Source of the DNA: Pseudomonas laurentiana
GTDB taxonomy: Bacteria; Pseudomonadota; Gammaproteobacteria; Pseudomonadales; Pseudomonadaceae
DNA: 64,000 bases
Reading direction: 5' to 3'
Assembly (NCBI RefSeq): GCF_014648275.1
Contig: NZ_BMQU01000013.1
Coordinates: forward strand, 1 to 64,000
This document shows positions 10,499 through 21,388 of the stretch, in pieces; positions within the stretch are counted from its first letter, which is position 1, and each line of letters starts with the position of its first letter. The translations under genes and the position numbers were made by a program. A model generated the notes under the pieces. That model ran no database searches. It saw only the letters and a program-made list of their open reading frames with translations, and was not told where the DNA came from.

Positions 10499-10566
10499 TC
10501 ACGGTCTTTCTGAAGCATTACGGGTATGACAGGTTAGATTCGATAGCGATAGCGCGGCAGGATCTG

Positions 10567-10724
10567 GCTTCGATAAAGAGCTCTGTAACCAGTTTTCAGG
10601 CTGTGTCAGGGCGATTTTTTCACCTTGCCATCGGGCGCTCTCGTCTTTGATGCCCACAGACTCTGCTGGATTGAGGTATTCATTCGGCTTGAATGAGTTT
10701 CTAAGGATTTCGTACAGAGTTTGG
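10567..10724 (-). mobile_element. Degenerate 5' end of an IS5-family element (second copy)
   Basis: This 158-bp segment aligns without net gaps, but with many substitutions, to 11055-11212, the start of the better-preserved IS copy and its leader. The offset is exactly 488 bp at both ends of the match. The initiation region of the transposase is still recognisable on the minus strand near 10627. Beyond about 10540 nothing IS-like is visible. Confidence 0.6.
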
Positions 10725-10734
10725 TTCTCCGCAG

Positions 10735-11119
10735 TTGCGGTCGAGCGCTCGATCTTGAGGCTCTTCAGGCCAGTTTTTTCTGCGCTTGATGAAGTTCTTC
10801 TTCCACGTACTGTGATGGAGTCGATTACCCAAGTGTTCAGGTCAATCAGGCCATGTTCGTTGAGTCTAATGTGAAGGCGTTTGAGGAACTGGTCAAAGAT
10901 CCCTCGTTTTCGCCAGTCACGAAAGCGTTGATAGATAGTTGACCAAGGCCCGAAGCGTTTCGGCATGTCACGCCAGGCTGCACCTGAGCAAAGCACCCAG
11001 AGCACGCCGTTCAGCATCAGGCGATCATCCGCCCTAGGGCGGCCACCGCGTCGTGCTTCGATAAAGAGGTCTGCAACCAGTTCCCAGGCTGCATCGGGTA
11101 GTTCATATCGTTTTGCCAT
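10735..11119 (-). pseudogene. Truncated IS5-family transposase
   Basis: Reading leftwards from MAKRYELPDAAWELV at 11119, the product matches the N-terminal half of IS5-family (IS427-like) transposases. It has the RRGGRPRADDR segment, GVLWVLCSGAAWRDMP, and the first catalytic Asp in WVIDSITVRG. Shortly after RRTSSSAEKTG the homology ends, and the frame runs on into the leader of a second degenerate IS copy before stopping at 10499. The remaining DDE residues are therefore missing and the gene is dead. The left breakpoint near 10735 is approximate. Confidence 0.75.
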
Positions 11120-11344
11120 CTTTGGCTCCTGCCTTTGATGGCGGCAGACTTTACTAGAATGGGGCTCTTGTTCGGATTGAATAAGTTTCGAGGGATTTCG
11201 TACAGAACTTGGCAGTGTCACTCTGTTTTTCGACGTTATTACACGGGATTTGTCGTCTAAGAGTCTGAAGTCACTGGTCTTTGTTCTTGTTGTTTTATGT
11301 GGTTTTGAGTAAGTATGGGTTATTTATTCAAAGGAGAAAGGCGG

Positions 11345-11948: not shown

Positions 11949-12446
11949 CTAGTCCGCCCCCATTACTCCGTCGATAAAAGGCGCCTTCTTTGCCAGGTAC
12001 TCACCGATGCCACCGGTGTTGCTGGCTTCGAGCTCACGTTTCAAGTCTTGATACTGCTGGCGAAGGACTGGGTCGTGCCTGAGGCGATCCCGGAAGCGAA
12101 GCATTCGTTCGATTTGGCGATGGCCGGTGAGGCAAACGTGGGCTTTATGGGTGCGCACGCCATCGACATCGCGGCGATAAAAATGGTGGCCTGCGGACAG
12201 ATCACTTCCTCGTGCGTAGCCGAGTTCGCGCATGACGGTGTCTCGGTGGGCCTCGTTCAGGTGCGCCGAAACCTCAATGAGAAGGTCAATTTCAGGCTTG
12301 GCTGCGAGCCCCGGAACAGCAGTGCTCCCGACATGGTGGATGGCCACAAGCTCAGCCCCGAACGCCGCCGCGATCTGCTCGCGGGCGCAGAGAAAGAGGG
12401 CAGGCCATCGGCTGTCATAGAGGGATATCGTGCTGGTGAGCCCCAT
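11949..12446 (-). CDS. GrpB-like nucleotidyltransferase-fold protein
   Basis: The 165-residue product matches the GrpB/UPF0157 family, which has a predicted nucleotidyltransferase fold. The core motif is HHVGSTAVPGLAAKPEIDLLI, residues about 41-61, with conserved Gly-Ser and Asp residues. The start at 12446 (MGLTSTISLY) follows AAGGAAG; an upstream ATG at 12497 would overlap the tRNA terminator. Biochemical function is not established for the family. The gene borders the integrated element and reads away from it. Confidence 0.85.
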   Translation of the reverse strand: MGLTSTISLYDSRWPALFLCAREQIAAAFGAELVAIHHVGSTAVPGLAAKPEIDLLIEVSAHLNEAHRDTVMRELGYARGSDLSAGHHFYRRDVDGVRTHKAHVCLTGHRQIERMLRFRDRLRHDPVLRQQYQDLKRELEASNTGGIGEYLAKKAPFIDGVMGAD

Positions 12447-12493
12447 GGCGCTTCTTCCTTGAATTCGCAAGCAGGCTTTGGTGTAGCGCAGGC

Positions 12494-12522
12494 ACAAAAA
12501 AACCGGCTCAATTGGCCGGTTT
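12494..12522 (-). terminator. Native tRNA-Leu terminator, displaced by the element
   Basis: On the minus strand, AAACCGGC and GCCGGTTT pair around a seven-base loop, followed by a T run. It stands about 43 bp beyond the distal att copy, where the transcript of the uninterrupted tRNA gene would have ended. The element now separates it from the tRNA by 8.7 kb. Confidence 0.75.
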
Positions 12523-12564: not shown

Positions 12565-12593
12565 TTGGTGCCCCGAGGGAGACTCGAACTCCC
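12565..12593 (-). repeat. Distal attachment site (29-bp tRNA-Leu 3' copy)
   Basis: These 29 bases are identical to 21303-21331, which cover the CCA end, acceptor strand and part of the T arm of tRNA-Leu. Bases flanking the match differ on both sides. A perfect copy of a tRNA 3' end facing an intact tRNA is the standard footprint of tyrosine-recombinase integration. Confidence 0.93.
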
Positions 12594-12649
12594 TCAAAAA
12601 CATCATAAGACCCAGCAATGCCGCGAGTTTAAAGGCTTTCAGTGGCTTT

Positions 12650-12682
12650 GGGTAGAAATTTTGGGTAGAATTTTGGGTAGAA
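12650..12682 (+). promoter_or_regulatory. Left-end GGGTAGAA array (putative recombinase arm sites)
   Basis: GGGTAGAA occurs at 12650-12657, 12663-12670 and 12675-12682, all in the same orientation, with 13- and 12-bp steps and T runs between. It lies between the att site and the integrase gene. The same motif recurs at the other end of the element. A role as integrase or excisionase arm sites is inferred. Confidence 0.65.
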
Positions 12683-12704
12683 ATGACTAGCGAAGGCTTT
12701 TGCT

Positions 12705-14024
12705 ATGACCGATTTTTTAGTCCTGAAATCCGGCACCTACTACGTCCGTCTGGACGTTCCAGAAGACGCACGGGAAGCCTTTTCCGGGCGTAAGGTTTTG
12801 ACTAAAAGCCTCAAAACTGGCAATCGTTCGGAAGCCCATATTTTCAAACTACGATGGTTGCAGCAGTGGAAAACCGAAATCGAAAAAGCCCGTAGGGGTG
12901 AAATCGGCAATTTCCGTGATGATGTTCTTCAAATAGTTGAAAAGCATCAAAGGGCCATAAACCAAGATAAAATTAAGGGGAAACCCGCAAACAATGAAAC
13001 AAAAATGGGTTTTGAAGTAATCCAATATACACAAGATAAGAAGTTAAGCATCGACCTTGTTAATGAAGCAATTGATATTGCAGCAGGTCGTTCGGACTAC
13101 TCACCAAAAACCCCATTTTTCAAAAGTCGCCTTGATGGTTTCTATAACTATGAATTAAATCAACGAAAAGTAGACTTGAATACAGTTGATAGACATATAA
13201 AGAGAATTAAAGCACTTGATGCCTTTTTGAAAGCTGAGGACTTATTGCTGGATTATGAGGCAGTTGCTTCATTCTTGATTTCAAAAAATCTGGAATCGAA
13301 GACAAAGAAACAATATTTGTTTTCGTTTAATGCCTTCTATAATTTCTTGATTAAAAAAGAACCACCATTCAAAGAACGTTATCCAATCAATCCTTTCAAA
13401 AGTCATGAATTGAGCCAAGTTAGACGTGGAACACTCAAAAAAGATGAAAGACGTGCTTTTACGGCGGAAGAGGTTGAAACCTTGCATAGTAAAGCAGTTG
13501 AAAAAGGAAAGCGTCAATTAGCCGATTTGATTAAGATAGCGGCCTATACGGGAGCACGCATTGAAGAAATATGCCGTTTAAAAACATCGTCAGTTGTTAA
13601 AGAGGATGGTGTGGATTGTTTTCATATTACAGAAGGTAAAACACAAGCATCCGTTCGTTTTGTGCCAATTCATCCGGTTCTCATGGAAACGGTCAAACGG
13701 CTTGTTAGTTCATCGGACGATGGGTATTTGTTGAAGACAAGCAAAGGTGGGAAGTATGAAACCAAATCGAAAGGTTTAGGTAATCAATTTTCAATCTTCA
13801 AGACAGATTTAGGTTTTGATAAAAAATGTGTTTTCCATAGCATTCGCAAAACTGTAATCACTACATTAGAGCGTGCTGATGTTAAGAACCTTGTCATCAT
13901 TTCGTTGGTTGGCCACAAAGCTGATGGACTGCTAAGAATGACTTTCGATAGATATTCGGAAGGCCCAACCCCAGCATCTAAAATGGATGCTGTTAAACAC
14001 CTACAATATAAATTCTCAGTATAA
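12705..14024 (+). CDS. int: Tyrosine recombinase (integrase)
   Basis: The product is 439 residues and has the catalytic set of phage-type integrases: Arg285 in YTGARIEEI, Lys312 in the beta-hairpin, His378 and Arg381 in HSIRKT, His404 in VGHKA and nucleophile Tyr417 in FDRYSEG. The N-terminal part (TYYVRLDVPEDARE, then KTGNRSEA) is the short arm-binding domain seen in island integrases. The gene stands just inside the distal att site, not beside the tRNA as in most islands. It starts 112 bp from the att copy and reads into the element. A terminator follows. It should catalyse integration and excision at tRNA-Leu. Confidence 0.94.
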   Translation: MTDFLVLKSGTYYVRLDVPEDAREAFSGRKVLTKSLKTGNRSEAHIFKLRWLQQWKTEIEKARRGEIGNFRDDVLQIVEKHQRAINQDKIKGKPANNETKMGFEVIQYTQDKKLSIDLVNEAIDIAAGRSDYSPKTPFFKSRLDGFYNYELNQRKVDLNTVDRHIKRIKALDAFLKAEDLLLDYEAVASFLISKNLESKTKKQYLFSFNAFYNFLIKKEPPFKERYPINPFKSHELSQVRRGTLKKDERRAFTAEEVETLHSKAVEKGKRQLADLIKIAAYTGARIEEICRLKTSSVVKEDGVDCFHITEGKTQASVRFVPIHPVLMETVKRLVSSSDDGYLLKTSKGGKYETKSKGLGNQFSIFKTDLGFDKKCVFHSIRKTVITTLERADVKNLVIISLVGHKADGLLRMTFDRYSEGPTPASKMDAVKHLQYKFSV

Positions 14025-14049
14025 TTTTTTATTGTTGTCATCATTCATG

Positions 14050-14075
14050 AGGCTACCTAATTAGGTGGCCTTTTT
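14050..14075 (+). terminator. Terminator after the integrase gene
   Basis: AGGCTACCT and AGGTGGCCT form a nine-pair stem with one G-U pair and the loop AATT, followed by five T. It lies 26 bp after the integrase stop. Confidence 0.8.
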
Positions 14076-14080
14076 AATGC

Positions 14081-14120
14081 CTGCTATACATTGCTATACG
14101 TTGCTATACATTGCTATACA
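14081..14120 (+). repeat. Four tandem 10-bp iterons
   Basis: The unit TTGCTATAC(A/G) is repeated four times head to tail, the first copy lacking one base match. Single copies of GCTATACA recur at 14152-14159 and, inverted, at 14231-14238. Such iterons upstream of mobilization genes often bind accessory or replication proteins. Confidence 0.75.
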
Positions 14121-14322
14121 CTTTCATTCTTTGTTATCTGGCTTATTGAAAGCTATACAACTTGAAAACATTTTAATATATGTTAACTTGATATTAGTAG
14201 TTCGAAAACATTACAGGCGAGCAATGTAAATGTATAGCACCTCACTTCGTTCGTTGCTTACATTTACGCTCGATTTTTCGCACTACGTTTGAAAAATTAA
14301 AATCAACAACCATGAGGAATGT
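14081..14322. promoter_or_regulatory. Candidate origin of transfer (oriT) and mob promoter region
   Basis: The 298-bp gap between the integrase and mobC contains the iterons, then an interrupted inverted repeat: CGAGC-AAT-GTAAATG at 14218-14232 pairs with CATTTAC-GCTCG at 14261-14272. A second inverted repeat, ATTTTTC/GAAAAAT, lies at 14273-14297. Position just ahead of mobC-relaxase genes is where oriT sits in most mobilizable plasmids. The nick site cannot be assigned from sequence. Confidence 0.5.
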
Positions 14323-14694
14323 ATGAGTGATAATAAAAAACCAAGACAGATGAATGTAAGAATATCCGAAAGTGATTACGAAAAGATTGAGCACGAAAGG
14401 GGAATTATACACAAAAGCCAGTCCGGCTATATTTCCCACATCATTAATAATGGCATCAGTGAAATTATTGAAATCACCAATCCTGAGCTTAGACAAGACA
14501 TTGATAAAATTGAAAGGTTTCTGGGCGGATATGGAAACAACCTAAATCAAATAGCTAAAAGTCTAAATGCGAATGAGACACCACCTTTTGATATTCTAAA
14601 AACGCTAACTGCACTCGACCAAAACATAACTATACTTACTAAAAAGTTGGGCAAATTAAAAAATGAGACATTAAGAAACGTAGGTAAGTCATGA
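14323..14694 (+). CDS. mobC: MobC-like mobilization accessory protein
   Basis: The product is 123 residues. The N-terminal part (RQMNVRISESDYEKI) looks like a ribbon-helix-helix DNA-binding strand and helix. Residues 68-82, GGYGNNLNQIAKSLN, match the GN-N-NQIA signature of the bacterial MobC family, which helps the relaxase open oriT. GAGGAA precedes the ATG. Its stop overlaps the relaxase start in ATGA form, so the two are coupled. Confidence 0.88.
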   Translation: MSDNKKPRQMNVRISESDYEKIEHERGIIHKSQSGYISHIINNGISEIIEITNPELRQDIDKIERFLGGYGNNLNQIAKSLNANETPPFDILKTLTALDQNITILTKKLGKLKNETLRNVGKS

Positions 14695-16652
14695 TACGTG
14701 AAAAGCTAAGCACTCAAAAATCTAAATCAAAGATTTACAAAACAGCCAAATACTTCAATAAAGAAGAAGGCTGCGTTTTATTCGAGTCAAATATTTACAC
14801 GCCTTTGAATGCTTCAAAGAAAGATATTGCGAAAGCAATATCACAATCAATTGAAAGCGATATTACTGACAACAAGAAAGGTAGAAAGCAATCCGTTAGA
14901 ACCCAGCACGATGTTGTTAGCTTTCATACGAATGACAATATTACACCAGAGCAAGCCCGTGATATTGCAAAAGAACTTTATGAGGCCACGCATAAACTTT
15001 CAAATAGAAAGTATTCGTTAGGCGTTCACATTGATACAGATGAGGTTCATGTTCATATTGTGTGGGCTTTAAAAGATTTTAATGGCAAGTGTTACAACGT
15101 CAGCAATGACTACCGTGTTATTGAAAGAGAATGTGAAAAGCTTGAACAAAAATACAATCTAATAGTTCCCGAAAATCGAATTTCAAGAGACATGGATGAA
15201 CTCGACAAAATAAAAGAGCTAACACTGCAAGATAAGAAAGACATTATCAACAAGAAATACAAAGACAAGCATCCATCAACAAAAGAAAGAATGCTTGACG
15301 TTCGTGGCGTTATTTCTAACAAGAAACAAATGAAAGACGCTTTGAGTGATTTCCTTAACAATGCTTCCAGCCCATCCGACTTCATCAACCAGATAACCGA
15401 GAATGGTTTCAATGTCATTCACAATGGCAAATCATCTTTCTCCATTCAACATGAAGACCAGATATTCAAAGCATCCGAGCTTGGCCTATCTTACAAAACA
15501 CTTAAAGCGAAACTAGGTGATGACACTGGCTTTGAGCAGACTTTAAAAAATAAGCACAACGTAAAGGAATACGAAAATTGTTCAATCGCTTCAACCGAAG
15601 CAGAACCCGACTACATGAAAAAGATTAAACCAAACTCAGTGCTTGCTACTAAGTTCAAGTTTATTCAGCATAGTGACAAGGTTGAATATTTCTATAATTC
15701 AGCCAGTAGCAAGAAATCATTCGAGTATTACAAAGACCCATCAAAAGTTTCATTCCATGATTTATCAAGACAGTCAGCAAAGGCTGGCATTCAAAGACTT
15801 GTTGCCGACGCCAAACCACCACAATCATTTACAGTGAATGGCCCTGATTACTTCAAGAAGAATGTATGGCTCGAATTTCAGCTAATGGGATTGGAAGCCA
15901 AAGGCTTCAAGCTTGAAGGCTACAAACCTACCCCAGCAGATTTAGACGAATTGAAGAAAATTCAGGAGCAATATGCTTCGATGAATAAGAAGGCCGATCC
16001 TAAACCGCAACCAGCACCAGAAGCCCCTACGGTGGCCGTAGAAGCACCTAAACCAGTTGAGCCTGTCATGCCTATACCTCTTCAAAAAGCTCCTGAGAAG
16101 CCACCAGAGCCTACAAAGAAGGTTGAACAAGAAAAGGTTACGCCAACCAATGATGGCTTAATTGATGACTTGCACGATATGTTCCGGCCAGCCATAGCTA
16201 CCCCTGTCGCACAAGCTCCCACAGAAGCCGTAGAACCACCTAAACCAGTAGAGCCTGCCATAGATGAGTTTTACATACCGATGGCACCAGAACCGCTTGC
16301 AGAGCCTGAAAATCACAAGATTGATGGAGACTATTCAACATATTCGAATGATGAACTTGTTGAAGAATTTGAATGGTTACAACCGAGACTAAAGAAAAGT
16401 TCATTTCCGGGTAATAGCAAGAGAGATATTGCCGGACATAGAGAGATGGACAACATCCCAGAAAATCGTAATGGAATAAAAACTGGAGATGTTAAACGTC
16501 AATATGAATTCAGAGAGAAGCTCTATAATCTATTTGATGAAATTAAAGAAAGAGACCCAGCGGCAGCAAAACAGCTTGAACAAGCTTTTAAAGCACAGAT
16601 GGCAAACAAAAGAGCGGTTACGTTTGACTTAAAACCACAGTTAACAAAATAG
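14691..16652 (+). CDS. mobA: Relaxase (MobA/VirD2-like)
   Basis: The product is 653 residues. The relaxase domain covers roughly residues 1-200. HIDTDEVHVH at 113-122 is the metal-binding three-His motif (His113, His120, His122), followed by W125. VVSFHTND at 75-82 is the strand before it. The catalytic tyrosine should be near the N-terminus, with Tyr16 and Tyr21 as candidates. Residues about 430-530 form a Pro/Ala/Glu-rich linker with two similar blocks ending PKPVEP. The C-terminal 120 residues are charged and unassigned. It should nick oriT, bind the 5' end and pilot the strand through a helper conjugation system. Confidence 0.92.
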   Translation: MIREKLSTQKSKSKIYKTAKYFNKEEGCVLFESNIYTPLNASKKDIAKAISQSIESDITDNKKGRKQSVRTQHDVVSFHTNDNITPEQARDIAKELYEATHKLSNRKYSLGVHIDTDEVHVHIVWALKDFNGKCYNVSNDYRVIERECEKLEQKYNLIVPENRISRDMDELDKIKELTLQDKKDIINKKYKDKHPSTKERMLDVRGVISNKKQMKDALSDFLNNASSPSDFINQITENGFNVIHNGKSSFSIQHEDQIFKASELGLSYKTLKAKLGDDTGFEQTLKNKHNVKEYENCSIASTEAEPDYMKKIKPNSVLATKFKFIQHSDKVEYFYNSASSKKSFEYYKDPSKVSFHDLSRQSAKAGIQRLVADAKPPQSFTVNGPDYFKKNVWLEFQLMGLEAKGFKLEGYKPTPADLDELKKIQEQYASMNKKADPKPQPAPEAPTVAVEAPKPVEPVMPIPLQKAPEKPPEPTKKVEQEKVTPTNDGLIDDLHDMFRPAIATPVAQAPTEAVEPPKPVEPAIDEFYIPMAPEPLAEPENHKIDGDYSTYSNDELVEEFEWLQPRLKKSSFPGNSKRDIAGHREMDNIPENRNGIKTGDVKRQYEFREKLYNLFDEIKERDPAAAKQLEQAFKAQMANKRAVTFDLKPQLTK

Positions 16653-16670
16653 CCCTATCAGGGCTTTTTA
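16651..16670. terminator. Terminator between converging relaxase and RHH genes
   Basis: AGCCCT-ATC-AGGGCT forms a perfect six-pair hairpin that begins inside the relaxase stop codon and is followed by TTTTTA. On the other strand it is followed by ATTTTG, so it may serve both directions. Confidence 0.75.
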
Positions 16671-16892
16671 TTTGTCTTGGATTTGAAAGTTTCTAATTCC
16701 AACTTGTAGCGTTACATCTTTGTTGAACCCGTTAACTTTGCTTACATTTAAGTATTCTTTCATACAATCATTTATAAAGCGTGACAACGGAAATTTGTGA
16801 GTATTGGCAATTTCTCTAAATTGATTATGTGTTTCAGCATCGAGTGTGATGGTGCAAACTTTAAGATTTGCTTTTGCTTTTGGTTTTTTCAT
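16668..16892 (-). CDS. Small ribbon-helix-helix-type regulator
   Basis: This is a 74-residue protein. The segment LKVCTITLDAETHNQFREIA followed by PLSRFINDCMKEYL has the strand-helix-helix layout of Arc/CopG-type DNA-binding proteins. It is the third gene of a leftward set with the replication gene, a position that suits copy-number or transcription control. Target unknown. Strongly AT-rich. Confidence 0.6.
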   Translation of the reverse strand: MKKPKAKANLKVCTITLDAETHNQFREIANTHKFPLSRFINDCMKEYLNVSKVNGFNKDVTLQVGIRNFQIQDK

Positions 16893-16983
16893 TAGTGTCC
16901 CTTTCTTATTTATATATATTTATTAGAGCACAAATAAAAGCAAAGTCAAATAAATACATATTTTTCTTGACAAAATTCAGGCA

Positions 16984-17007
16984 CAAAAAAACCAGCATTA
17001 GCTGGCT
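16984..17007 (-). terminator. Terminator after the small gene at 17011
   Basis: On the minus strand CCAGC-TAAT-GCTGG is followed by seven T. It would end transcripts from the replication-gene side before the regulator at 16892. Confidence 0.75.
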
Positions 17008-17010
17008 TTG

Positions 17011-17229
17011 TTATAAGTCCCTTATACATTCGTCTTGATATTCGTAAGGAACTCTACTTTGGTCTACCAGCACCTTGAATGTGTAATCTAATGGGTCAAA
17101 AATCAAATGACAAACACTTTTGTCATGTGCATTCTTAACATCTTTATATAAACCATAAAGACCTAGTTTTTTTGTATATTTTAAGATTTCTTTTCTTTTG
17201 CTAGTTACCCTTATTAGTTGCATGCTCAT
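17011..17229 (-). CDS. Unknown small protein downstream of rep
   Basis: I do not recognise this gene. AGGAG at 17237-17233 serves either ATG at 17229 (MSMQLIRV) or ATG at 17223 (MQLIRV); spacing is better for the second. The product is about 70 residues, basic in its first half (TSKRKEILKYTKKLG) and mixed after. It has no membrane segment or metal motif. It is flanked by the rep stop and a clear terminator, which argues for a real gene. Confidence 0.5.
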   Translation of the reverse strand: MSMQLIRVTSKRKEILKYTKKLGLYGLYKDVKNAHDKSVCHLIFDPLDYTFKVLVDQSRVPYEYQDECIRDL

Positions 17230-17292
17230 AATCTCCTGTTCTTGATAACAATATAACATGCGATTATAAATAATCAATAGATAAGTATTTAT

Positions 17293-18876
17293 TTATTGCA
17301 ACTCGGCAGCATCAAGCAATGCAGTATCAACAATTTTGTAATTTGCTTTTATATCAATCATTTCTTTTGTGCTCAAATCAATTATGTATTTACCTATTAG
17401 TCTTTTTCCGAAAACATCACCGAGCAGGTCATTCTTAAATACTTGTATTTTGCTGTATAGCCTCATTATTTTTAGGTTTCCATTTACAAATATAGAGAAC
17501 CCAATGAAATCGTTCTTGTCCACAAATGCGAACGCCTTATCAATAACGTCATTCTTGCCTTTCAAGAATGATTTTCTTTTCAGCTCTCTCCACAATGAAA
17601 GCGTATTCTTAACGCCGAACATTGCATATCTACGCACAGACCACAGTGCTTGAACTGCTCTAACTTTTTTGTGATTTGAGATTTCCAACTTATCTACATT
17701 TAGGACGCCGCCTTTTAACTCGAATTCCAAATTGAATGACTTAGTTAGATACTTCATCACGTATGATGTTGCCTTGCTTTTCTTTGCGTCAATTTCTTCA
17801 ATTCTTACGGCGTTTTCCGAGTGTCTAAAATGCTTGTTAATCAAGATTACTAATTCGTCATAATGTTTCTTATTAACATACATTAAAGCGTGCTTATGAA
17901 AGCACTGGTCTTTGTGAGGTTCGACTGCCCAGAAACCATTCATCTCAATCTTATGTCTATGGATGTCTTTTCTAAAAGCATTCCATAAGCCTTTCAAGTA
18001 ATCATTGCTATCCTTTGGGGTTGAACCGTCCCAAGAACTAACGCCTTTCGACGGCTTTGGATGAAATCTTGCCGGAGCGGTAAAAGTTATGAAAAGAGGC
18101 TTATAGTCAAGTTGTTTGGCATAGGCGTCCAACGATGAGACTTGGATAAATATCTCAGCAAATCTTTGCTTTTCAGTGCTTGCTACTTTCCATAGTGGGA
18201 TTTTCTTGTTGTTTTCATTAACAAGAGATTTCTTCATTATGTAATCAAGCTGGCTGGCTTCGTCAGCTTCTCTATTGCGAACAACTTCATCACTACAAAT
18301 CTCAAATGCTCGACCGGAACCAATCAAACCTGAGTGCAGCTTTAAAAGTTCGCTTCTTTGTTTTTGTATTCTTTTTATTTGTGATTTAAGTCTTTTCTCA
18401 TCAGCAATGTTGATGAGCTTGTCTTTTATAGTTGACCCTTTAATGTCCTTTATTTTGATACCATAACCGATATCCCAATCATTCTTTATGCGTGAAAAAA
18501 TACTCTCGCCGGAGTCATCGTTGTCGAGGTTTCTCTGCTTTATTATTAGTTGCTCTTGAGTTCTCTCGAAAACAAACGTGATATTTTTGACGATTTCGTC
18601 CAAATCGCCAGCTAGAATGTATTTATGTCGTATCTTCCAGCATCTATATTCACTGCAAGTGGCAACCCAAGTGAATTTATTTTTGAGGTTTCTTATTTCT
18701 TTGGCTATGTTTTCACGCTTTCTTTTTGATGAGTTATTTAACTTATTTTCAAGACATTCCTTTGCAATCATCTTTTTTTCGATGGCTCGCTCAAAAAAAT
18801 ACTGCCTTTCACATTCTGCAAAGAAAAATTCAGGAGTAAGATTTTTAAGGATTATGCGTTGTGGAATAAATATCAT
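17293..18876 (-). CDS. rep: HUH replication initiator, phage gpA-like
   Basis: The product is 527 residues, starting MIFIPQRIIL. FITFTAPARFHP (about 262-273) is the first strand motif of rolling-circle initiators. EPHKDQCFHKHALMYV holds the His-x-His metal site (His327, His329). SYVMKYLTKS has two tyrosines, Tyr372 and Tyr376, four residues apart, as in the two-tyrosine class of phiX174 and P2 gene A proteins. AVQALWSVRRYAMFG further on is also typical of that class. It should nick a double-strand origin and start rolling-circle replication. No good ribosome site is visible before the ATG. Confidence 0.88.
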   Translation of the reverse strand: MIFIPQRIILKNLTPEFFFAECERQYFFERAIEKKMIAKECLENKLNNSSKRKRENIAKEIRNLKNKFTWVATCSEYRCWKIRHKYILAGDLDEIVKNITFVFERTQEQLIIKQRNLDNDDSGESIFSRIKNDWDIGYGIKIKDIKGSTIKDKLINIADEKRLKSQIKRIQKQRSELLKLHSGLIGSGRAFEICSDEVVRNREADEASQLDYIMKKSLVNENNKKIPLWKVASTEKQRFAEIFIQVSSLDAYAKQLDYKPLFITFTAPARFHPKPSKGVSSWDGSTPKDSNDYLKGLWNAFRKDIHRHKIEMNGFWAVEPHKDQCFHKHALMYVNKKHYDELVILINKHFRHSENAVRIEEIDAKKSKATSYVMKYLTKSFNLEFELKGGVLNVDKLEISNHKKVRAVQALWSVRRYAMFGVKNTLSLWRELKRKSFLKGKNDVIDKAFAFVDKNDFIGFSIFVNGNLKIMRLYSKIQVFKNDLLGDVFGKRLIGKYIIDLSTKEMIDIKANYKIVDTALLDAAELQ

Positions 18877-18909
18877 GAAAGTTATTATTGTTCGTTACTA
18901 ATACAAATA

Positions 18910-18924
18910 CCATGCCGTGCATGG
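18910..18924. promoter_or_regulatory. Palindrome upstream of rep
   Basis: CCATGC-CGT-GCATGG is a perfect six-base inverted repeat about 35 bp upstream of the leftward rep start. It could be an operator or a hairpin of the origin. Confidence 0.35.
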
Positions 18925-19120
18925 TTGTCAAATAAATAAATATTTTTACTTTCTAACCTGTAAAAAAGCTGATTTTTTTAAAAATCAAAAACGGTCAAAA
19001 AAACCTATAAAATCAACTTGCGACACTTATTTAAGAGTTATCCAAGAAGAGCGTAAAAAGCATAAAGCCGCCCTAGCAGGCGAAAAGCTTCTGGGTATTG
19101 CGAACAAAGTTCGCATATGA
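18917..19120 (+). CDS. Possible small basic protein
   Basis: A 67-codon frame opens inside the palindrome and lacks a ribosome site. The C-terminal half (YLRVIQEERKKHKAALAGEK) is lysine-rich and helical in character. A weak hairpin (AAAACACG/CGTGTTTT at 19253-19278, then TTG) lies downstream. It may be a real gene starting at another codon, or chance in AT-rich DNA. Confidence 0.25.
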   Translation: MHGCQINKYFYFLTCKKADFFKNQKRSKKPIKSTCDTYLRVIQEERKKHKAALAGEKLLGIANKVRI

Positions 19121-19661
19121 AAATCAAAAGCGTAAAGCTCAAAATTTAATTCCAAATACATTTGGAGCAGCAAAACTTTTAAATATCAAAACTTATGAAA
19201 CGGCTGTTTTTAGACGATTTACCATCTTATTCGTATGGTAATACCTAGAATTAAAACACGCCGTTTTTAACGTGTTTTTGTTAGTGCCCTAAAAAAGAGC
19301 GTTGATTTTTTTGCACGTTTTCATGTCAGTTTTTTGAGTTTTCATTTTCTTGGGTAGCCGTTTTTTGGCTTAAAAACAATGAAATTCGTTGTCAATAGAA
19401 AATTGAAAATATATTTATGGTGCAACCTTAATCATCAAATAGAGTTCAACCTTATTCTTTAAATTTCTCAAAATTGAAAATGACCCTCTGAAAATCTGTA
19501 TGAAGAAACGTCGCGTTCATCTGGTCATTTATCACGCTTGAACAAGTTCAGCCGCTAAAAACGACCTTGACGGGTGTGTGAACCATTCACAGAGCATAGC
19601 CATATCTGATACTATTTAACAAAATTATGACGCGATGACCTTAACTCTGGATGATTAATCA
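19121..19661. other. AT-rich spacer of the element
   Basis: No gene can be supported in these 541 bp. Visible structures are the inverted repeat TTACCAT/ATGGTAA at 19219-19241, the hairpin at 19253-19278, a small AGCC/GGCT hairpin near 19354, and two near-identical CAACCTTAATC and CAACCTTATTC boxes between 19420 and 19465. It may contain a replication origin or promoters for the flanking genes. Confidence 0.4.
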
Positions 19662-20162
19662 ATGGCTTTATTTGATTTTTTCAAAAAAAAGAAAACCCAA
19701 GAAAAAGAACCCAAAAGATACCCCATAACACCTGAAATGACTGATGGAGTTTCTTTTGTATACTCTTTAATTAAGGACCAATTTTTTTTAATTGAGAAGT
19801 CTGGTGTGAAAACGCCGCCGCTTCTTTACAAAGGAGATAATGGGGATTACGAAATTAACCAATGGCTTGCTGGATATATTTCTGGATTTTATGACGCTTT
19901 TCTTCAGTCTAAAAATCAGAAATATGACCCCAACGCTCTTGAATTGATTTTCAGCGTATTATACGGCGAGGAAGTCGCGGAAGAAGGTATAAAACAATGC
20001 ATCGTAGCCATGATGACACTAGGGGACAAAAGCGATAATCTTTTCAAAGTCGCGTTTGAAGAATTTGACGATGGTCTATATGCAGGAGGGAATAACTTTT
20101 TTGATTGGAAAGATAAAAAGATATTTGCTCCATTAGGTATCTATAACAAATATGCTATGTGA
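19662..20162 (+). CDS. Unknown cargo protein
   Basis: I do not recognise this 166-residue acidic, soluble protein. It starts with a basic, Phe-rich tip (MALFDFFKKKK) and then has a regular helical body with several aromatic residues (INQWLAGYISGFYDAF). There is no signal peptide, transmembrane segment or nuclease motif. Composition is AT-rich like the mobility genes. It stands alone, with a similar 16-base sequence on either side (19593-19608 and 20205-20220, 14 of 16 identical). Confidence 0.6.
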   Translation: MALFDFFKKKKTQEKEPKRYPITPEMTDGVSFVYSLIKDQFFLIEKSGVKTPPLLYKGDNGDYEINQWLAGYISGFYDAFLQSKNQKYDPNALELIFSVLYGEEVAEEGIKQCIVAMMTLGDKSDNLFKVAFEEFDDGLYAGGNNFFDWKDKKIFAPLGIYNKYAM

Positions 20163-20229
20163 TTTTCCCTGACGAGTCTATGAAGGATTTTTCACCTGTT
20201 ATATAGCATGGCCATATGTGTTAGCGGCC

Positions 20230-20697
20230 CTAGTCCTGCTTACAAAAAAAGGTGTTCAGTCCTTCACCGATAGTATCGGGTATGGTCCTTGTCCACTCTG
20301 CACGTTTGTTGGACGTGTGATTTAACGTTTTTCCTGAAAAATCATAATCAATGCTTTCAGTAACCCTAGATGTTCCATTATTACAATTGATCTCGTAAAG
20401 GTTCATCGAAATTTCAATTTCACCATCTTTTTCGTTGTCGCAGATGACCCTGTCCATAGGGCTTTTCATAAATAGGTTTCCGCCACAGCTTTTGGGTTGT
20501 GGGTATTCGACTTTAAACCAAAGCTCATAGCGACCTTTATCGTGTCTTAGAACACCTTTCGTGAATACCTTCTGGCCGTTAACGCCATCACTAAATTGGT
20601 GCCAAGGGTCGTTTGCTACGAACTCTTGGACGTTAGAAGGAGCAGCAGCCGCTACCCCTAGTGGGAGAACGGCAGCCAAGACGAGTGCTAACCTCAT
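20230..20697 (-). CDS. Secreted protein, surface-adhesin-E-like
   Basis: The 155-residue product has a clear signal peptide (MRLALVLAAVLPLGVAAAAPS). The mature part has paired cysteines and the pattern KGRYELWFKVEYPQP followed by a NLYEINC strand. It resembles the small periplasmic or surface-adhesin-E-type domain, but only loosely. Its ATG overlaps the stop of the gene at 20694-21002, so the two are coupled. Composition is closer to the Pseudomonas backbone than the mobility genes. Confidence 0.6.
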   Translation of the reverse strand: MRLALVLAAVLPLGVAAAAPSNVQEFVANDPWHQFSDGVNGQKVFTKGVLRHDKGRYELWFKVEYPQPKSCGGNLFMKSPMDRVICDNEKDGEIEISMNLYEINCNNGTSRVTESIDYDFSGKTLNHTSNKRAEWTRTIPDTIGEGLNTFFCKQD

Positions 20698-21002
20698 TTG
20701 GCTAACAGCCCTCCGACTTCTTTCCGCAATTGTTCAACGACCACGTCAAGCATTTGAGGGAAAGTCTCTCCGAAAAATTTCGCCTCAGTCTTAAAGGGGT
20801 GGCCCATTGACGCCTTGTTGACGCCGAAGGCTTCACCTTGATCGGTCAATTTCCTGAATGACTTCATCACACCGTTGCCGGTGGTGCTCGCATACTCAAA
20901 GCTTTCCGCGTAACCAGCTTTCAGCAGAGCATTCATGATGGTGCTCGCGTCGAATGAGACGCCGTGGTCAGCAATCAAGGCTTTGAGGGATTTTGCTTGC
21001 AT
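20694..21002 (-). CDS. Unknown protein, coupled to secreted partner
   Basis: The product is 102 residues starting MQAKSLKALIADHGV at 21002, where AAGGAAAG gives a good ribosome site; an ATG at 21116 has none. It is helical and soluble, with a short Gly/Thr-rich turn (STTGNGVMKSF). I do not recognise the family. The stop overlaps the start of the secreted protein gene by the ATGA rule, so they form a two-gene operon. The length, lack of membrane segment and coupling would suit a regulator or a partner of the secreted protein, but neither can be shown. Confidence 0.6.
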   Translation of the reverse strand: MQAKSLKALIADHGVSFDASTIMNALLKAGYAESFEYASTTGNGVMKSFRKLTDQGEAFGVNKASMGHPFKTEAKFFGETFPQMLDVVVEQLRKEVGGLLAK

Positions 21003-21212
21003 GTGGCTTTCCTTGCGTGGTGGCGTTTTGCCTAGGCTAATCCTCGCCTGAGCCACACATCTATGCAACCCATGGTTGACCCTTTTACGCACTGCTGCAG
21101 AGCCGCAGCACTTCAAGCGGTCTGGATCAGAAAGGATGGCTTAAACGCACAGTCTCTCGCGTGAATGCAAAGCAAGAAGACTACTGCCGGGAGGCAGTTT
21201 TTCCCAAGAAAA

Positions 21213-21270
21213 GGGTATGAGAAGGGTAGATTTTTTGGATAGAAAAAGGGGTAGAAATTTCTTTCTACCC
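21213..21270 (+). promoter_or_regulatory. Right-end GGGTAGAA array (putative arm sites)
   Basis: Motif copies begin at 21213 (GGGTATGA), 21224 (GGGTAGA), 21237 (GGATAGAA) and 21249 (GGGTAGAA), with 11-, 13- and 12-bp steps; an inverted copy TTCTACCC is at 21263-21270. Orientation is the same as in the left-end array. Confidence 0.65.
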
Positions 21271-21302
21271 CTTCTCTAAGTCCTTGATTTACAAGGAGAA
21301 TG

Positions 21303-21331
21303 TTGGTGCCCCGAGGGAGACTCGAACTCCC
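21303..21331 (-). repeat. tRNA-side attachment site
   Basis: This is the second copy of the 29-bp att sequence, lying inside the 3' end of tRNA-Leu and matching 12565-12593 exactly. Confidence 0.93.
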
Positions 21332-21388
21332 ACTCCTTTCGAAAACGGATTTTGAATCCGCCGCGTCTACCAATTCCGCCATCAGGGC
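21304..21388 (-). tRNA. tRNA-Leu, anticodon CAA
   Basis: The gene is 85 bases and encodes its own CCA end. The acceptor arms GCCCTGA and TCGGGGC pair with one G-U. The anticodon arm has stem GCGGA/TCCGT and loop TTCAAAA, giving anticodon CAA (codon UUG). A long variable arm and the GTTCGAGTC T loop are present. It is the integration site of the mobile element, and its 3' end is restored by the element's att sequence. Confidence 0.96.

Follow-up and report, generated by a model that had tools for sequence, protein, structure and literature searches.

Integrative mobilizable elements (IMEs) with a replication initiator of their own have been described in several forms. In the excerpts of PMC5704250 used here, the initiators of SGI1 and BcenGI2 are of the Rep_3 type, that of GIsul2 is RepA/RepC and those of streptococcal IMEs are Rep_Trans proteins or replisome organizers/DnaC, while initiators of the phage rolling-circle replication type (Viral_Rep, PHA00330) appear as the putative relaxases of streptococcal IMEs. 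The same excerpts state, as of 2017, that the replication of excised IMEs had never yet been studied. Here we examine an element of 8,738 bp inserted in a tRNA-Leu(CAA) gene within a stretch of 64,000 nucleotides (the window) from Pseudomonas laurentiana (GCF_014648275.1), which starts at the beginning of contig 13 (NZ_BMQU01000013.1). Work later than 2017 reportedly deals with the replication of excised IMEs in the case of SGI1.

Like SGI1, BcenGI2, GIsul2 and the streptococcal IMEs, the window element has a site-specific recombinase for its integration and an initiator of its own, and would use a foreign mating pore (PMC5704250). Unlike the IMEs treated in those excerpts, its initiator is of the P2/HP1 gpA type (PF05840), a type unnamed there, and unlike the streptococcal IMEs it pairs a MOBP relaxase with a separate gpA-type enzyme side by side. 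NBU1 and MTnPi4, IMEs of Bacteroidota, likewise combine a tyrosine recombinase with the 3' end of a tRNA-Leu gene, and NBU1 has a MobP relaxase; they belong to another phylum, are listed in these excerpts without an initiator and are set apart by description. Tn6916/Tn6917 and Tn6918/Tn6919, in Pseudomonas chromosomes, are likewise called IMEs in the excerpts of PMC8905914 used here, but their prototypes of 51.0 and 70.49 kb, by dinG or tRNA-Thr, are not compact and occupy other sites; two of these four elements hold a blaVIM integron. A preliminary description of the window, made from its sequence, knew of no named element with this combination of genes, and none that is identical was found in the open-licence PMC literature or by megablast in 72,556 plasmids. 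The words integrative, genomic island, relaxase, mobile genetic and integrase are all absent from the main text of the papers on strains ANT_H4 and ANT_H12B, both carriers of the element (PMC9756463, PMC10149013), and the available portions of PMC6896180 and PMC5714925 do not name the element.

The element is inserted site-specifically, its modules are intact, it has spread recently and it has exchanged modules with relatives. From these observations we infer excision, replication and transfer, and place at roughly 0.88 the probability that it is an IME of a modular family so far found in Pseudomonas.

Insertion site and boundaries

Two exact direct copies of a 29-bp sequence mark the attachment (att) sites at 12565-12593 (attL) and 21303-21331 (attR), a repeat with a chance expectation of 0.00 in 100 shuffles. 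The attR copy is the 3' end of the intact tRNA-Leu(CAA) gene (21304-21388, minus strand; ARAGORN and Rfam RF00005), which adjoins queA and then tgt (gene names assigned by eye), and attL is the tRNA-distal copy of that 3' end. When the whole 5.21-Mb, 223-contig genome was searched for a 27-bp att core with up to two mismatches, only these two copies were found. The element has a GC content of 0.378 against 0.602 for the host DNA at 21389-64000. A complete-looking, AT-rich IME of 8.7 kb between perfect repeats of the tRNA 3' end had been proposed in the preliminary description, and each part of that proposal was borne out.

Three direct repeats of 12-13 bp, TTTGGGTAGAA(A/T)T, were found by a repeat search inside the left end (12647-12684, plus strand). 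GGGTAGA repeats together with a 12-bp inverted repeat, conserved in relatives, lie inside the right end (21224-21273). Repeats near both ends are in the usual location of integrase arm sites and are likely to serve as such. At the left end GGGTAGA occurs three times in each of the ANT_H4, Ant30-3 and ANT_H12B copies of the element and twice in that of L18.

The preliminary description left two matters for comparison with other genomes, whether relatives lack the element and whether the same gene set occurs elsewhere. On the first, other Pseudomonas species do lack it. A single att core, that is an empty site, was present in all 14 tRNA-Leu/queA neighbourhoods fetched from same-genus relatives. 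These 14 loci came from 35 other same-genus genomes; not taken were G009 and G030, with their second core, G035, whose match lies at the edge of a contig, and another 18 that scored lower. Among the matches listed for the 36 same-genus genomes, a second core was seen only in the window genome, G009 and G030. The left flank of the window element (from 12484-12490 on) aligned directly into the core in 6 of the 14 relatives, and it is therefore DNA that originally lay downstream of the tRNA gene.

Integrase and mobilization genes

Reading from attL, the element encodes a tyrosine integrase, followed by iterons and a candidate origin of transfer (oriT), MobC and a MOBP relaxase. On the opposite strand after the relaxase come a ribbon-helix-helix (RHH) protein, a 72-aa protein and the gpA-type initiator. 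Non-coding DNA of some 0.8 kb separates the initiator from the cargo, behind which lies the right end. An intact integrase, MobC, a relaxase and an HUH initiator had been named in the preliminary description, and the open reading frames (ORFs) of all four are intact with matches to the expected families.

The integrase (439 aa; 12705-14024, plus strand) matches PF00589 (2.5e-12) and, with its DUF6538 N-terminus, PF20172 (6.6e-13). Residues R285, H378xxR381, H404 and Y417, which we take to form the tyrosine-integrase motif, are all present. Four 10-bp iterons, TGCTATAC(A/G)T, were found by repeat search at 14082-14121 (plus strand), with an inverted copy at 14229-14239. Since closely related copies of the element in ANT_H4 and Ant30-3 have eight and three iterons, respectively, the array seems to grow and shrink quickly. 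The candidate oriT (14153-14306, plus strand), upstream of mobC, was recognised from non-coding blocks common to elements whose relaxases are about 40% identical. Folding of 14022-14322 as single-stranded DNA gave a z score of -2.59, and an equally good fold arose in 1 of 100 shuffles.

The MobC/NikA-like relaxosome protein (14323-14694, plus strand) matches PF21983 (NikA-like, 1.1e-7) and PF05713 (MobC, 8.1e-6). The relaxase (653 aa; 14691-16652, plus strand) matches PF03432 (5e-21) and also the NCBIfam model TraI_MobP_relax (2.3e-17, under that model's cut-off). Invariant in 13 relaxase sequences are Y21, H113, D115, H120, H122 and W125; an N-terminal tyrosine with a motif of the HxDxxxxHVHxxW type is characteristic of the MOBP class. 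The element has two of the possessions expected of an IME, a site-specific recombinase with att repeats at a specific target and a relaxase of its own, its oriT being a candidate. None of its ten ORFs scanned against Pfam, PHROGs and NCBIfam belongs to a type IV secretion system (T4SS) family, and the complete conjugation machinery of an integrative and conjugative element was thus not found.

Replication initiator and the phage alternative

The initiator (527 aa; 17293-18876, minus strand) matches PF05840 (Phage_GPA, 1.1e-35) and phrog_91, 'nicking at origin of replication' (3.3e-50). Residues H327-x-H329, Y372, K375 and Y376 are invariant in 10 aligned sequences. The profile match together with the HUH and tyrosine motifs makes this a gpA-type HUH initiator, and its family membership suggests that it could act as a rolling-circle replicase. 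Searches of PDB sequences gave no match for the initiator or for the relaxase.

The gpA/Rep proteins of P2/HP1-type phages have the same HUH motif, the same pair of tyrosines (YxxKY) and the same Phage_GPA profile, which raises the question of whether the element is a prophage remnant or a phage satellite, possibly packaged by a helper phage. The best-ranked matches of the initiator in a phage collection were mostly P2/HP1-like, and a 102-aa product encoded close to the right end is similar to a family of phage regulators. However, the matches with the best E-values were only 28-30% identical over 55-61% of the initiator, and the initiator has no phage structural genes around it: capsid, tail, terminase and packaging proteins had no match among the ten ORFs scanned with Pfam and PHROGs. 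None of the five tRNA-Leu/gpA copies has a damaged MobC or relaxase gene, IMG/VR yielded no confirmed relative of either relaxase or initiator, and a blastn search of 50,697 phage records with the non-coding core of the element gave no match. A phage origin of this kind is thus very improbable, and the reading of the element as an IME is kept.

Two small genes stand between relaxase and initiator. The Arc-like (RHH) protein (16668-16892, minus strand; phrog_3180, 1.2e-6) has a counterpart at the same place in 9 other gpA elements and is likely to regulate the initiator. The 72-aa protein beside rep (17011-17229, minus strand) is conserved in a 7-sequence alignment, with 44-91% identity to the window copy; an 88-aa reading of it gave no Pfam, PHROGs or NCBIfam match at E 0.1. 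A single marginal PADLOC match of this small protein to SduA (E 0.0074) was not believed. These two proteins and two conserved non-coding blocks, treated below, are additions to the features of the preliminary description.

Related copies and recent transfer

On the second matter for comparison, the full backbone was found in the same tRNA gene in four other strains, ANT_H4, Ant30-3, ANT_H12B and L18. Three of these are of Antarctic origin, ANT_H4 and ANT_H12B according to paper titles and Ant30-3 according to its name only. A scan of the genomes of 84,980 species with two short peptide patterns from the initiator, which may miss remote relatives, confirmed 13 gpA loci. Twelve of these are in Pseudomonas, counting the record 'gamma proteobacterium L18' (same-genus genome G408), and one is in a metagenome-assembled genome at 23% identity; the other protein searches in genomes stayed within the genus. 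Among 399 Pseudomonas genomes a relaxase match was seen in 29 (E up to 0.001, many of them remote), an initiator match in 15 and an integrase match in 89, nine of the latter at 84% identity or more and one of these nine broken.

The copy in ANT_H4 is, after rounding, 100% identical to the window element in every 400-nt bin of 12565-18964 (about 6.4 kb), with the four extra ANT_H4 iterons uncounted. The two hosts are 83.9% identical over 2,197 nt of queA-tgt, and the transfer between species is therefore recent. The Ant30-3 copy is a mosaic, with 97-100% identity in integrase and rep, 62-71% over 14165-14964 (oriT/mobC) and 84% over 16165-16564, in a host with 86.3% identity to the window genome at queA-tgt. 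Recombination inside the element is therefore real. The preliminary description had read the AT-richness as a sign of a recent and distant source. The acquisition is recent by the ANT_H4 comparison, while a distant donor is not supported: 12 of the 13 gpA loci confirmed with the two peptide patterns are in Pseudomonas, and a similarly high AT content (GC 0.37-0.41) marks all four sister copies.

Decayed copies were also encountered, with a broken integrase in L057 (genome G113) and a broken relaxase and initiator in L047/L101 (genome G078). ANT_H4 has a second locus (L039/L076) that holds a divergent gpA and relaxase together with a serine recombinase, an element type that recurs in P. viridiflava, P. 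fildesensis and P. petrae (L077-L079).

Exchange of modules

The loci fetched have a common layout of recombinase, oriT, mobC, relaxase, convergent initiator, non-coding DNA and cargo, within which the mobilization module has been combined with different recombinases, initiators and cargo. Compared with the window element, P. entomophila 6C6 and PB120 show 79-82% identity in the relaxase and 77-84% in the initiator, yet they encode a serine recombinase where the window element has its tyrosine integrase; Resolvase/Recombinase domains were found in two serine recombinases of the family. Genome G009 has the tRNA-Leu integrase at 91% identity beside a different relaxase (32%) and no gpA. In several elements the place of gpA is taken by a protein from either of two mutually similar families (hhalign 98.8%). 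Of four members that were scanned, three match phrog_775 ('replication helicase'); a weak match to Rep3_N, below cut-off, was given by one protein, and the families are here termed Rep_3-like. One of them, of about 292 aa, was seen at the gpA position in L043 (11281-12153) and L096 (2596-3471); it has no Pfam match and gave two weak rows against PDB, with E of 0.2 and 0.99.

A tree was built from the first 480 aa of 23 relaxases; the broken copy in G078 was excluded, as were the other rows and fragments of the relaxase search. On this tree the tRNA-Leu integrase label requires five changes, at least four of them forced by well-supported branches, and 227 of 500 shuffles were as low. The serine label of the remoter group was clustered (2 of 500 shuffles). 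Initiator type requires five changes by parsimony, a raw count without shuffle control on 20 of the 23 rows, two having been dropped with an unassigned initiator and one without a detected initiator. The label 'comM-type' denotes 65-100% identity to the MF4836 serine recombinase; a piece of a Mg_chelatase (comM-like) gene near the serine recombinase was confirmed by Pfam only in MF4836 and was seen by eye in L072 and L074.

Proteins of 548-554 aa with an HGDE...HPH motif were observed in L096 (887-2530), L098 (11134-12795) and L046 (17143-18789), that of L098 lying beside a tRNA-Leu integrase of 90% identity. The L096 protein has no Pfam or PHROGs match. Judged by eye, these proteins are possibly unrecognised MOBV-like relaxases.

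Conserved non-coding motifs and the plasmid alternative

Two conserved blocks lie in the non-coding DNA beyond the initiator. Both recur in elements that differ in recombinase, relaxase and initiator, motif A more widely than motif B. Motif A (19362-19450, plus strand; core 19390-19417) was defined from 16 aligned sequences and motif B (19519-19570, plus strand), with the dyad TTGAAC-AA-GTTCA, from 13 and later 14. With one mismatch allowed, the motif A pattern occurred at 10 places in 7 of 199 Pseudomonas genomes and the motif B pattern at 5 places in 5 genomes, motif A being present in each; a reversed control pattern had no match in the 199 genome rows. In plasmids, as in phages, blastn searches gave no match to the core. 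Eight of the ten motif A places are near MOBP relaxase loci, and the other two are loci with a 548-aa protein or with a 612-aa protein 23% identical to it.

Motif A accompanies gpA, 292-aa and 324-aa initiators and motif B only the first two. By blastn, motif B was not seen in the ANT_H12B and L18 copies or in elements with the 324-aa initiator, L043 and L051 showed motif B without motif A, and the remoter gpA elements L058, L059 and L077-L079 showed neither. In loci holding both motifs, motif B always points the same way relative to the relaxase; motif A does not, being inverted in L048 and L049 and facing against motif B in L096. A single exact motif A match in IMG/VR (L113) was treated as chance, as no family gene was seen in its 4.5 kb (ORFs by eye).

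A plain sigma-70 promoter was considered for motif A (TTGTCA-17-TATTTA by eye) and rejected, as promoter prediction lists none there; over the region it found 19 promoters against 24.3 expected. The conserved spacer suggests a role for motif A beyond that of a promoter. The idea that motif B forms a structured RNA was likewise given up: RNAalifold on 14 sequences returned 5 pairs at -1.03 kcal/mol with one double-change pair, which is weak. A promoter, an origin or strand-priming site and a helper-sensing site all fit the motifs.

The Rep, RHH and mob genes resemble those of a small plasmid, and in ANT_H4 related modules (548-aa and 292-aa proteins with motifs A and B) lie on a separate 4.8-kb contig (L096). 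It might be argued from this that the rep-mob unit exists mainly as a plasmid and becomes integrated now and then, an explanation that overlaps with the IME reading. Yet the megablast search of plasmids mentioned above gave no match for the element, its relaxase, initiator and integrase matched plasmid records at below 60% identity in all cases, and the integrase lies beside the att core in all five tRNA-Leu/gpA copies. An integrated plasmid is accordingly unlikely, and the element continues to be treated as an IME.

Cargo and neighbouring DNA

What lies beyond motif B, up to the right end, is a cargo slot that varies among copies. In the window element it begins with a 166-aa protein (19662-20162, plus strand) outside known families, with no match in Pfam, PHROGs, NCBIfam or PADLOC at the thresholds used and one other weak match (33% identity) among 299 genomes. 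It is followed by an Adhesin_E-like protein (20230-20697, minus strand; PF16747, 7.5e-7) with an apparent signal peptide, seen by eye, and by the 102-aa phage-regulator-like protein (20694-21002, minus strand; phrog_129, 1.2e-7, in a longer ORF reading). Only three cargo genes had been described initially; three cargo-side ORFs are indeed present, although the ANT_H4 copy too has the last of them, with 97% identity at the protein level. Elsewhere the slot contains other genes: in ANT_H4 those for a Clp-protease-like product (match below cut-off) and a small uncharacterized one, and in L18 those for a cytosine methylase and its partner, a restriction enzyme of the NgoMIV type (L044, 3761-5592). 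A methylase in L098 (16677-17645) has the same first 70 residues as the methylase of the L18 copy.

To the left of the element, the window has an apparent transposase fragment (10499-11221, by eye) and a drop in GC at 10-12 kb. A GrpB-family gene (11952-12497) sits between this fragment and attL.

Discussion

The gene content points to a plausible mode of action and makes the 'appears functional' of the preliminary description a plausible reading. The integrase would excise the element as a circle via the att cores and the GGGTAGA arm repeats, MobC and the MOBP relaxase would nick oriT upstream of mobC, and a conjugative helper in the same cell would receive the nicked strand at its coupling protein and pore. 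The gpA-type initiator may multiply the excised circle by rolling circle, thereby limiting its loss and raising transfer, with the RHH protein perhaps restraining the initiator.

Several points weigh against our interpretation. Excision, replication of the circle and transfer are steps that we infer, oriT and its nic site are candidates only, and no excisionase was identified in the element. The attL copy of ANT_H12B is one base short, and the strains with an empty site are all of other species. On the relaxase tree, two rows are on long branches and of unsure placement, and all five recombinase labels together require 11 changes against a shuffled mean of 14.2, a count as low being reached in 7 of 200 shuffles. 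The labels are thus jointly more clustered than chance would give, and exchange is not free of descent. Finally, no coupling protein (T4CP) or VirB4 match was found in the host genome, a 223-contig draft searched with PF02534, PF03135 and PF12696, so that the helper must come from elsewhere. It counts in favour of the interpretation, on the other hand, that a T4CP-type domain was found in four of six other carriers searched, in one of them barely above cut-off and in another in a genome with a decayed copy.

The lack of matches to these three T4SS families in the window genome would also suit a decayed, immobile island maintained by vertical descent, as would the broken relatives, one in its integrase and the other in relaxase and initiator. 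Against this, the backbone ORFs of the window element are all intact and a near-identical copy exists in ANT_H4, a strain whose queA-tgt has diverged by 16%. Mere vertical descent can hardly be the explanation, and a mobile IME accounts better for what was observed.

A wider and tentative proposal, which we consider doubtful at present, is that of a Pseudomonas superfamily of plug-and-play IMEs in which tyrosine or serine recombinase, MOBP or MOBV-like relaxase, gpA-type or Rep_3-like initiator and cargo would all be exchangeable. What is kept, the non-coding core (motif A foremost, often with motif B), might then be the true identity of these elements and a cis site for a host or helper factor. 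If so, the core could serve as a shared origin or site of strand priming, or else as a switch that responds to a helper by setting off excision and copying. The window element is a natural Pseudomonas system of 8.7 kb that encodes both a MOBP relaxase and, as a distinct enzyme, a gpA-type HUH initiator. Its relatives with other initiator types would allow direct tests of what the initiator contributes to maintenance and transfer, and the non-coding core, kept through many module swaps, offers a concrete target for finding what ties the element together.

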